Origin: Archangium sp.
GTDB lineage: Bacteria; Myxococcota; Myxococcia; Myxococcales; Myxococcaceae
Length of the DNA stretch: 64,000 nucleotides
Reading direction: 5' to 3'
NCBI GenBank assembly: GCA_030695565.1
Contig: JAUYRZ010000018.1
Coordinates: forward strand, 1-64,000
The notes beneath the pieces were generated by a model that was not told the DNA's origin, searched no databases, and was given only the letters and a program-made list of their open reading frames with translations. Positions 16,560-51,103 of the stretch are shown in pieces (within the stretch, counting starts at the first letter, position 1; each line of letters opens with the position of its first letter). A program made the position numbers and the translations under genes.

Positions 16560-19306
<2,747 letters not shown>

Positions 19307-19319
<13 letters not shown>

Positions 19320-19356
19320 GGGGCACCCCTGGTCTCTGGGTGGAGGGCGGCGCGTG
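19307..19356. repeat. Direct repeat A: relic of a sigma-gene 3' end at the kinase start
   Basis: CGGTGGTGTTCACGGGG (19307-19323) is identical to 19942-19958, and similarity continues through CCCCTG. On the minus strand 19320-19356 reads ARAALHPETRGAP-stop, matching the true sigma C-terminus ARAFLHREIRGSP-stop, while the kinase GTG overlaps that stop as GTGA. It is the right-hand junction copy of the original sigma-kinase overlap. Confidence 0.8.
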
Positions 19357-19426
19357 CTGACGCGCTGAGGTGACGGTCGTTGGAGGGGTCGTTGAGTCCT
19401 CTCGAGCGGCATGCGACTGCGACGCC

Positions 19427-19927
19427 ATGTCCGACCTCGCCCTGTTGGAGAAGCGAATCCGCAGAACCGCCATTCAGGATGCCGGCATCGCCGTCGTGGT
19501 GTTCGCCATGGCGCCCGTGACGCTGTTGGCTGCCTGGTCCACCACCAAGGAGGGCATCACGGGGCGCACCGCGATGATGGGCTTCTTCGGGCTCGTCTTC
19601 TTTTGGGTCGCCTGGGTGATGTTCGACGCGGCCCGCGCTCTTTGGCCGGCGCAGGAGTCGACCGTCTACAAAGAACTCTCGGGGGACGGCAACGGCATCG
19701 CCTGGTCGCACCTCACGACCGGGTCGCTGTCCGCCATCAAGGTCTATTTCGTCGACGGAACCTTGTGCACCCTCTACGCGGGGAAGCGCGACGCCGAGGC
19801 GCTGCTCAACCTCGTGGGTCAACGAGCGCCGCGCGCGATCCTCGGGTTTGGTCCTGAACAAGAGGCCGCCTACTGTGCACTCGTCGACAAGCGCCGAGCC
19901 GATGCGCGGAGTGCTCCCGAAATCTGA
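19427..19927 (+). CDS. Two-helix membrane protein in an inserted cassette, unrecognised
   Basis: 166 residues from the ATG at 19427 (MSDLALLEKRIRR). Two hydrophobic segments (IAVVVFAMAPVTLLAAW and MMGFFGLVFFWVAWVMF) are followed by a ~95-residue soluble domain (TVYKELSGDGNGIAWSHL and ending near FGPEQEAAYCALVDKRRA). I do not recognise the family. It is transcribed against the sigma and kinase genes it separates and is bounded by direct repeats of the sigma-kinase junction, so it is a later insertion. Confidence 0.6.
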   Translation: MSDLALLEKRIRRTAIQDAGIAVVVFAMAPVTLLAAWSTTKEGITGRTAMMGFFGLVFFWVAWVMFDAARALWPAQESTVYKELSGDGNGIAWSHLTTGSLSAIKVYFVDGTLCTLYAGKRDAEALLNLVGQRAPRAILGFGPEQEAAYCALVDKRRADARSAPEI

Positions 19928-19941
19928 CCTGGAAGCGCGCG

Positions 19942-19990
19942 CGGTGGTGTTCACGGGGAGCCCCTGATTTCGCGGTGGAGAAAAGCTCTC
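19942..19990. repeat. Direct repeat B: sigma-gene 3' end
   Basis: Contains the end of the functional sigma gene (minus strand ARAFLHREIRGSP-stop) and the same CGGTGGTGTTCACGGGG as repeat A. Together with A it brackets the ~585-base cassette carrying the gene at 19427. Confidence 0.8.
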
Positions 19991-20526
19991 GCCTTGCGCC
20001 AGTCGCGTCGCACCGTGCGGTCGGTGACGCCCAGCAGCGAGGCGATCTCCTCCTCGGTGAGGCCGGCGAAGTAGCGGTACTGCACCACCTTCGCGAGCCG
20101 GGCGTCGAGCTGCTCGAGGCGCTGCAGGGCTTCCTCGAGCTTGAGCACATCGACGTCTTGCGCGTCGCGGGCCATCACCTCGTCGGTGAGCGTGACCCGC
20201 ACCGCCTGGCCACCGCGCTTCTGACTCATGCGGGCGCGGGCGGCGTCGACCACGATCTGCCGCATCGCCGTGCTGGCCATCGCGAGGTAGTGCTCACGAT
20301 CGTTGATCTTGAAGTCGGCCGCGGAGAGCTTGAGCCAGGCCTCGTGAACGAGCACCGTGGGCGTCAGCGTCGCGTGCTCCGCGCCCTGCCGCCGCAGCTG
20401 CGAGCGCGCCTGGTCGTGGAGCCGCCGGTAGATGAGCCCGTACGCCTGTTCAGCCGCAGACGGGTCGCCGCCCTGCGCCTCGCGCAGCAGTTCCGTGAGC
20501 GACGTTTCCTCTTTCTGAGACCCCAT
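19951..20526 (-). CDS. ECF RNA polymerase sigma factor, TIGR02999 type
   Basis: 191 residues. Region 2 is visible around TPTVLVHEAWLKL and DREHYLAMASTAMRQIVVDA; region 4 around VVQYRYFAGLTEEEIASLLG followed by VTDRTVRRDWRKARAFLH, a helix-turn-helix for the -35 box. This is the sigma subgroup usually encoded next to Ser/Thr kinases, and the kinase at 16560-19319 is its natural partner: the original stop-start GTGA overlap can still be read in both junction copies. Regulation through phosphorylation by that kinase is inference from family context. Confidence 0.9.
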   Translation of the reverse strand: MGSQKEETSLTELLREAQGGDPSAAEQAYGLIYRRLHDQARSQLRRQGAEHATLTPTVLVHEAWLKLSAADFKINDREHYLAMASTAMRQIVVDAARARMSQKRGGQAVRVTLTDEVMARDAQDVDVLKLEEALQRLEQLDARLAKVVQYRYFAGLTEEEIASLLGVTDRTVRRDWRKARAFLHREIRGSP

Positions 20527-20601: not shown

Positions 20602-21984
20602 GTGAAAACACTGATTCTACTGACGATTCTGAGCGTGACGGCGGCGTGTGGTGCACCGGGCGGATCCGGTACGGGTGGCGGTTCAGGGAGCACCGGCGGC
20701 GGCACGGGGAGCATGGGCGGCGGCACGGGGAGCATGGGCGGCGGCGCGGGGAACATGGGCGGCGGCGCAGGCGCCATGGGGTGGAGAGAGATTGCGCCGC
20801 CCGATCCGTTCAGCAGCAGCTCCAACTACGTCTACGGCGTGTACTGCACGGCGGCAGACAAGTGCGTGGTGGCGGCCGGCACGGGCAGCTCGCGTGGTGG
20901 CGGCGTGTACGCGCTGGGCGCCTCGGCGTGGGGTGAGCTGCTCGTCGACGGTGACTACGAAGACGGTCCGCTCTCGGGGATCAGCGGCTCGTTGGGCGAC
21001 TTCGGCTTCCTGGGTTTCGTGCCCTCACGCACGGGCGTGGTGGCGCGCGTCACCTCGTCGGGCGTCATCGTCTCGGCGACGGGCGACATCACCACCAAGG
21101 CGAACTGGACGGCGGTGAAGACGGGAACCGTGACCGGCGGCAACTTCGGCCTCAACGCGACGCTGACCCTGCAGTCGGCCGCGGACAACGACTGGGTGTT
21201 CGTGAACAACAACGGCTACGTCTACTCCGCGACGCAGGCGCCTTCGGCGAGCACCACCTGGACGCGGCTCTGGGCGCCCACCTCAAATCCCCCGGTGCCG
21301 GCTGACTTCGTCGCGCAGTACACCGCTGACAAGACGTTGTGCGATTGGGACATCTCGACCACGGCGCAGCCCTTCCCCTCGCAGTCGTTCTGGGCCGCGC
21401 AGGATCTCTCGGTGCTGATCCACCCTGCGTACGGGCTGAACCAGAACTCCTGGCGTGAAATCAACAACAAGGAGACCGAGTTCGGTGCAGTGAAGGCCGG
21501 CGTCTGCATCTCCACCGACAAGGGTCTCCACTTCTACTTCAAGGAGCTGCCGGAGAACCTGCAGGTGAGCAGCCCGGGCCCTTTCGGCGTGACCTGCCTC
21601 GACAAGGACACGTGCTTCGCCTTCAACGGCACGCAGTCGCAGGCCAACAGCTACATCTACGCGTCGACGAACGCGTCGATGGGCAAGACCTCGACGTGGA
21701 CCAAGGCGACGTTGCCTTCGGGCTTCGCCACCTCGACGGACATTCAGATCGCCGCGCTGTTCTTCGCGCCTGACAAGACGCACGGCTGGGCGGTGGGCAA
21801 CAACAACCGCAAGCCCTTGCTGCTGCGCACCACCGATGCGGGCCGCACCTGGGTGGACATCAGCGGGCAGGTCGCCGCGCTCGCCGACTCGGACCTGGTG
21901 AACGGCTTCGCGCTCGACAAGGACCGCATCTGGGTGGTGGGCCGCTACGGCTTCGTCGGCACCACCGGCTCCGCGCAGAACTGA
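20602..21984 (+). CDS. Lipoprotein with Gly-rich linker and BNR/propeller-like domain
   Basis: 460 residues from a GTG at 20602 with a strong AAGGAG site eight bases upstream. MKTLILLTILSVTAACG is a lipoprotein signal (lipobox TAAC). A ~40-residue GGGxGSMGGG linker follows, made of near-identical 18-base DNA units. The rest has repeated blade-like motifs such as TWTRLWAPT, GWAVGN and LLLRTTDAGRTWVD, the Asp-box style found in sialidase/photosystem-II-stability-type propellers. A surface-exposed propeller lipoprotein is likely; its ligand is unknown. Divergent from the sigma gene across 75 bases. Confidence 0.7.
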   Translation: MKTLILLTILSVTAACGAPGGSGTGGGSGSTGGGTGSMGGGTGSMGGGAGNMGGGAGAMGWREIAPPDPFSSSSNYVYGVYCTAADKCVVAAGTGSSRGGGVYALGASAWGELLVDGDYEDGPLSGISGSLGDFGFLGFVPSRTGVVARVTSSGVIVSATGDITTKANWTAVKTGTVTGGNFGLNATLTLQSAADNDWVFVNNNGYVYSATQAPSASTTWTRLWAPTSNPPVPADFVAQYTADKTLCDWDISTTAQPFPSQSFWAAQDLSVLIHPAYGLNQNSWREINNKETEFGAVKAGVCISTDKGLHFYFKELPENLQVSSPGPFGVTCLDKDTCFAFNGTQSQANSYIYASTNASMGKTSTWTKATLPSGFATSTDIQIAALFFAPDKTHGWAVGNNNRKPLLLRTTDAGRTWVDISGQVAALADSDLVNGFALDKDRIWVVGRYGFVGTTGSAQN

Positions 21985-23005: not shown

Positions 23006-23020
23006 CCCATACGATATGGG
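23006..23020. promoter_or_regulatory. Palindromic operator of the VapBC genes
   Basis: CCCATA-CGA-TATGGG, a perfect 6-bp inverted repeat ending one base before the antitoxin ATG at 23022. A third half-site CCCATA lies at 22998-23003. The position is as expected for autorepression by the VapB-VapC complex. Confidence 0.6.
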
Positions 23021-23021
23021 C

Positions 23022-23258
23022 ATGAAGACGACCCTCGAACTTCCTGACGCGCTCCTGCGACGAACCAAGGCCGCGGCTGCGATGCGCGGTGTGTCGATGC
23101 GAGACTTCATCGCCCTGGCACTGGAGCAGCAGCTTCAGCAACGCGCTTCAGTCCCCGGCTGGCGAAAGCTCGCAGGCAAGGCCAGGAAGCTCGACACGAA
23201 ATCCGTCGATCGGGCAGTGGCCAGGGAGTTCTCACACGTCGAAGAGGACACCTGGTGA
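23022..23258 (+). CDS. vapB: Antitoxin, ribbon-helix-helix/VapB type
   Basis: 78 residues from the ATG at 23022 (MKTTLELPDALLRRTKAAAA); the ATG six bases earlier lies inside the operator and is less likely. The N-terminal beta strand plus two helices (ELPDALLRRTK, VSMRDFIALALEQQL) is the ribbon-helix-helix DNA-binding fold, and the C-terminal tail SVDRAVAREFSHVEEDTW would neutralise the toxin. It ends as GTGA with the start of the PIN-domain toxin. No good ribosome-binding site is visible, so the mRNA may be leaderless. Confidence 0.8.
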   Translation: MKTTLELPDALLRRTKAAAAMRGVSMRDFIALALEQQLQQRASVPGWRKLAGKARKLDTKSVDRAVAREFSHVEEDTW

Positions 23259-23641
23259 GAGACCTCGCGCTCGACACCAATGCCGTCTCGGCGCTGCTGG
23301 AAGGTGATGAAGCGCTGCTCGGGCTCCTGGAGGGCGTCACCCGCTTCGCGCTGCCGGTGATCGTGGTCGGTGAGTATCGCTTCGGCCTGCAGCGCTCGCG
23401 TCATCGCAAACAACTCGCCGTGATGCTCGACGCCTTGGTCGCGGAGTCGGATCTCCTGATGATCGACGACCACACCACGCTCCACTACGCTCAGATCCGC
23501 GAGGCGCTTCGCACCAGCGGGCGCCCGCTCCCGGAGAACGACGTGTGGATCGCGGCGCTGTGCCGGCAACACGAACGCACCCTGGTCACGCGAGACGGTG
23601 ACTTTCATCACGTCGCATCGATCACCGCTGTTCGCTGGTGA
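23255..23641 (+). CDS. vapC: Toxin, PIN-domain ribonuclease (VapC)
   Basis: 128 residues, GTG start overlapping the antitoxin stop. The four acidic PIN residues are visible: Asp7 (LALDTNAV), Glu40 (VVGEYRFGL), Asp96 (LPENDVWIAAL) and Asp114/Asp116 (VTRDGDF). VapC toxins cleave tRNA or rRNA when free of antitoxin. The set is complete, so the toxin should be active, and the operator upstream implies normal autoregulation. Confidence 0.9.
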   Translation: MRDLALDTNAVSALLEGDEALLGLLEGVTRFALPVIVVGEYRFGLQRSRHRKQLAVMLDALVAESDLLMIDDHTTLHYAQIREALRTSGRPLPENDVWIAALCRQHERTLVTRDGDFHHVASITAVRW

Positions 23642-50703: not shown

Positions 50704-51103
50704 CGAACCACCCGGAAGCCTGGACGTCAGCCTGCCGGTGGACACCGCGTGCGCCGCCTCGCCCGTCACCTTCGGACCGCCGCGGGTGAAGGGCTCCAGC
50801 GCCGGTGGGTCAGCCGGTTTGTTGGTCCGAAGAGGCGATCGAGAAATCCCATGCGCCGCTAACCCCTCACGCGGGGACGGTGTGCAGAACGCTGCGAGCG
50901 GAGTCGAGGGGCGCCGAGCGCGCAACTCCACAGAACGCAAAGCGCCATGGCGTTCGCATCTCGACAAGCTCGGTGTGAACGGTCTTGCGACACGTATTTC
51001 TGCCAACCCGCTCGAGATGAACGGGGTAGCGACGAAGGGTTCGCCCTTCGACAAGCTCAGGGTGAACGGACCTACCGACACTTCGGCTCGACCCTCCGGG
51101 GGC
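50704..51103. other. Gene-free stretch with two REP-like repeats
   Basis: No supported gene. Two imperfect inverted repeats lie at 50952-50980 and 51039-51067, of the GTTC(A/G)CCCT-TCGACAAGCTC-AGGGTGAAC type. The second has complementary arms GTTCGCCCT and AGGGTGAAC with one mismatch. These are REP-like units seen in many genomes. Confidence 0.7.

Follow-up and report, generated by a model that had tools for sequence, protein, structure and literature searches.

The break-up of an operon by an unrelated gene that enters between two of its genes is well known in operon evolution. Translational coupling at gene pairs that overlap as ATGA or GTGA has been the subject of a separate study (PMC6728339), and in the ECF43 group of sigma factors the adjacent kinase phosphorylates a threonine in region 2, which thereby provides a negative charge that is otherwise missing (PMC8999054, PMC13147305). 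In the ECF43 pairs EcfP/PknT of Vibrio parahaemolyticus and EcfK/PknS of Xanthomonas citri, the sigma gene adjoins a Ser/Thr kinase gene. A similar pair is found in the 64,000-nucleotide stretch of Archangium sp. DNA analysed here (the window), and an unrelated gene now sits between its two members, as in general operon break-up. In five relatives the pair has the same 4-bp stop/start overlap as the coupled gene pairs, as its ancestral state, whereas in the window the overlap has been resolved by a duplicated junction with DNA between the copies. What sets the locus apart from general operon break-up is that the footprint of the duplicated overlap can still be read and that the same split, with a different insert, occurs in a sister species. 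A search of the literature on insertion between overlapping genes returned nothing on duplicated overlaps, judged by title and abstract.

The ECF sigma factor gene (19951..20526, minus strand, stop TGA at 19951-19953) is intact, and its product belongs to both TIGR02999 (190.7 bits, cut-off 126.15) and PF07638 (155.9 bits, cut-off 21.1, E 1.4e-45). The kinase gene (16560..19319, minus strand) encodes a Hanks-type Ser/Thr kinase (PF00069, E 1.1e-41) with an apparent transmembrane segment and TPR repeats (PF13424, TPR_12). The GTG at 19319 is its likely start because the kinases of relatives begin, at a GTG, with VNADDRTRRALSLFDELV, for which the window has VNTTDRSRRALSLFDELV; a longer open reading frame from the ATG at 19412 is unlikely. 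By analogy with ECF43, the two genes probably encode a phosphorylation-activated ECF sigma factor and its kinase. The acidic DAED of region 2.2 is apparently replaced by a threonine motif, LTPT[VA]LV[HN]EAW, perhaps comparable to the STTA/QTTA of ECF43 (PMC8999054, PMC13147305), and Thr57 within LTPTVLVHEAW in region 2 is invariant in seven orthologues. The locus departs from ECF43 in that the motif reads TPTV or TPTA rather than STTA or QTTA and in that the window's kinase and sigma genes are physically split, and its placement in that group is putative.

The sigma, the kinase and a divergent neighbour occur as orthologues in the same arrangement in six other genomes of the family. The sigma orthologues are 69-88% identical and the kinase orthologues, which adjoin the sigma gene as in ECF43 in all six, are 64-84% identical. 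Five of the six (G092, G093, G094, G095 and G044), which represent two other genera of the same myxobacterial family and are more distant than the sixth (G010), have an empty site, with nothing between the genes and a 4-bp overlap of sigma stop and kinase start that reads GTGA or ATGA; in the window the two genes are 0.63 kb apart. The original prediction had held that sigma and kinase were once overlapping genes and had proposed a comparison with relatives lacking the inserted cassette; the five empty sites bear it out. The compact operon has thus been opened in the window's lineage, and a gene now lies between its two members within a duplicated junction.

The divergent neighbour is a putative lipoprotein gene (20602..21984, plus strand), whose orthologues, at 74-87% identity, lie next to sigma in each of the six related loci. 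Because it has been kept beside the sigma gene in all seven loci, it is a possible target of the sigma factor. Near the N-terminus of the lipoprotein there is a G-rich 21-nt tandem repeat, and the protein shows weak YCF48/BNR similarity. Immediately after the kinase gene, in the same orientation, comes a GGDEF diguanylate cyclase gene (PF00990, 15461-16477) that has no match in the compared stretches of the six related loci. Elsewhere in the window, at 23016-23641, a small gene pair resembles a VapBC-type toxin-antitoxin module by eye from the translation, with a short DNA-binding-like protein followed by a PIN-like protein.

The duplicated junction is marked by an exact 17-bp repeat, CGGTGGTGTTCACGGGG, at 19307-19323 and 19942-19958, with no further copy in the window even when three mismatches are allowed. 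The sigma-side copy (copy L, 19942..19980, minus strand) provides the true sigma end, completing the open reading frame 20526..19951 as ARAFLHREIRGSP*, and behind the sigma stop it carries a kinase-start remnant, GTGAACACCACCG. The kinase-side copy (copy R, 19307..19361, minus strand) contains a decayed sigma end that reads ARAALHPETRGAP*, together with the Shine-Dalgarno-like CAGGGG of the kinase, immediately ahead of the kinase GTG at 19319. Both copies contain GTGA. The original prediction had labelled the sigma-side copy B and the kinase-side copy A; the exact repeat, the two encoded sigma ends (listed in the order B, A and rightly assigned), the sigma stop at copy B, the kinase start at copy A and the opposite-strand membrane-protein gene between them all stand.

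The 17-bp repeat is the core of a longer ungapped match. Compared in register and anchored on GTGA (39 nt upstream and 13 nt downstream), the two copies agree at 38 of 52 positions, which is reached by none of 125,098 background positions and none of 1,212 other GTGA sites (best 29/52 in both sets). A repeat finder likewise reported 39 nt at 85% identity and a spacing of 635. Free local alignment of the remnants is uninformative because short GC-rich matches are common, and only the anchored in-register test has power. The identity continues for nine exact bases past the sigma stop into kinase-start sequence, which has no evident constraint, so that the match is more than a common motif of sigma-factor ends.

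The inserted gene (19427..19927, plus strand, ATG at 19427, stop at 19925-19927) lies antisense to sigma and kinase, and encodes a predicted membrane protein of 166 amino acids, with two long membrane helices predicted at its N-terminus and a small alpha/beta region at its C-terminus (AlphaFold2 model, mean pLDDT 82.6). The protein has no match in Pfam or NCBIfam, and a fold search of the model against the PDB returned nothing significant, with weak PH-like matches only. Within the phylum, strong matches are limited to 3 of 195 genomes. The homologues in two other members of the family, G095 (48% identity) and G011 (43%), stand alone among unrelated genes and not near any sigma-kinase junction. 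The insert is an uncommon gene of the family, with a patchy distribution, that has been captured at the junction.

Among the relatives that have the operon, the nearest, G010, is also an Archangium (sigma 88% identical), and its operon is split as well, by 218 nt and with a duplicated junction; the split is known from these two species. The in-register match in G010 is 23/39, where 1,213 control GTGA sites yield 22 at most, and the repeat tool independently returned a junction repeat of 27 nt at 78% identity with a spacing of 218; the sigma-end remnant upstream of the GTG is weak when taken alone (17/39, equalled by 5,872 of 125,124 null positions). After the G010 sigma stop comes GTGAACACCG, which encodes VNTGRT-LF, the true kinase start of this species being VNTERTRRALALF. 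In front of the G010 kinase stands GGGCTCACCG, which encodes GSP-stop, as at the sigma end of the window. Neither this locus nor the rest of the G010 genome contains a relative of the window's inserted gene. The G010 insert is instead a palindromic REP-like element. Direct repeats above the null flanked none of 19 other G010 REP sites, and it is because the sigma-kinase site alone exceeds the null that we reject REP insertion as the cause of the duplication. The REP-like family (core CCGAGCGGAGTCGAGGG), represented at L042:10213-10345 in G010 and at 50894-50910 in the window, has about 630 core matches in G010 and only 37 in the window's genome, and its copy number differs greatly within one genus.

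In both species, then, an ancestral overlap has given way to a duplicated junction between intact flanking genes, and the inserts differ. We consider it probable, though well short of certain, that a small duplication of the junction split the overlapping operon and that different inserts followed. An ancestral sigma-kinase operon joined by the 4-bp GTGA overlap would have had its junction duplicated in an Archangium-like lineage, in a stretch reaching about 39 nt or more before the GTG and 9-13 nt or more beyond it. One junction copy would then have completed the sigma gene, and the other would have kept the ribosome-binding region and GTG start of the kinase. The space between them may have become neutral and taken in different DNA in each species, namely the stand-alone membrane-protein gene on the opposite strand in the window and the REP-like palindrome in the sister species. 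Under this scheme the duplication would precede the inserts and would have occurred once, on the stem of the genus, the alternative being that it happened twice.

The four copies themselves bear on the age of this event. GTGAACACC is common to all four copies of the two species, in place of the GTGAACGCC, GTGACTCCA or ATGAGCACG of relatives, which indicates that the duplication arose after the genus lineage had separated. At the nine sites where the sigma ends of the two species differ, copy R agrees with each of them four times, suggesting that it diverged at around the time the species separated, or earlier. In our ranking a single early duplication comes ahead of a foreign or paralogous donor, with two independent events in third place.

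The second reading, which we regard as unlikely, is that recombination with a related sigma-kinase junction, paralogous or orthologous from another strain, brought in the cassette and left donor DNA on one side. Copy R is indeed about equally distant from the sigma end of the window (25/38) and from the sigma ends found in other genera (25-26/38). Five of nine amino-acid-identical codons differ between copies R and L, and this richness in synonymous changes would also be in keeping with a donor copy that had a past as a functional sigma gene, although the L side is itself a working gene that would gather them. The paralogous form of this reading, which the original prediction had favoured, is not supported. 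A search by protein, PF07638, DNA and a 23-nt pattern, in a genome estimated to be 100% complete (134 contigs), found one TIGR02999 sigma factor; the next PF07638 matches resemble ordinary ECF sigmas at no more than 40 bits, against 155 bits for the window's sigma, and no second junction copy exists in the genome within three mismatches over 23 nt. A paralogous donor within the own genome is thus rejected. Against a donor of any origin, the kinase-start remnant in copy L carries ACACCACCG, an exact match to the window's own kinase and unlike relatives, the homologues of the inserted gene in G095 and G011 lie away from sigma-kinase junctions, and G010 has the duplication without the cassette.

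Somewhat less likely again are two independent duplications-with-insertion at the same junction in the sister species. The premise is that an insertion into a 4-bp overlap would be tolerated only if the overlap is duplicated, and for that reason every surviving insertion would show the duplication. The kinase starts fit two separate duplications and speak against a single event, as the G010 remnant and kinase are one codon shorter (VNTGRT, VNTERT) and the window's pair share VNTT, so that each form is common to a species' own remnant and kinase. The inserts of the two species are unrelated, and their kinase-side upstream remnants are dissimilar (13/38). However, this reading requires a rare event to have struck one site twice, once in each sister species, and the kinase-side remnant of G010 keeps GGGCTC.CCG, which resembles the window's sigma end rather than its own and is therefore not recent. 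The wider claim, that junction duplication and insertion recur at the overlap of this operon, that the sister species were split independently and that overlap duplication is a general route by which genes are admitted into tightly coupled pairs, seems doubtful to us.

We find it very improbable that a mobile element carrying the membrane-protein gene produced the copies as its target-site duplication. A direct repeat does flank an insert at a site that is empty in relatives, but 19323-19942 contains no transposase, integrase or terminal inverted repeat, and the duplication is long (about 52 nt) and diverged rather than of a fixed short type, and is present in G010 without the cargo. The cargo gene as a mobile element in its own right is rejected, with no homologue in phage or plasmid collections and with homologues that stand alone in other species. 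Chance similarity, or a convergent ribosome-binding and start context, can be dismissed as practically negligible for the window copies, since the constrained GTGA and G-rich Shine-Dalgarno-like stretch shared by both copies leave unexplained both a match far above every control GTGA site and the unconstrained bases beyond the sigma stop.

If a single early duplication opened the operon, the effect would be that translation of the kinase is no longer coupled to that of the sigma factor, with the phosphorylation circuit retained. In the relatives, the 4-bp overlap probably couples translation of the kinase to that of the sigma factor. The window's kinase must start from the Shine-Dalgarno-like CAGGGG in copy R, and this role in kinase initiation may be the reason the stretch has survived there. 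A scan for a sigma-70-like promoter of the separated kinase, which is of little use in a GC-rich myxobacterium, found none. The two proteins are perhaps less tightly co-expressed now than before the split.

The locus reveals no new molecular system and is an instructive but ordinary case, a clear but modest example of operon evolution. Its value lies in a readable footprint of how a pair of genes with a 4-bp overlap was separated without the loss of either gene, with empty sites and a sister species available for comparison. It is also a natural test, on a small scale, of whether coupled translation is necessary for a phosphorylation-activated sigma factor and its kinase.
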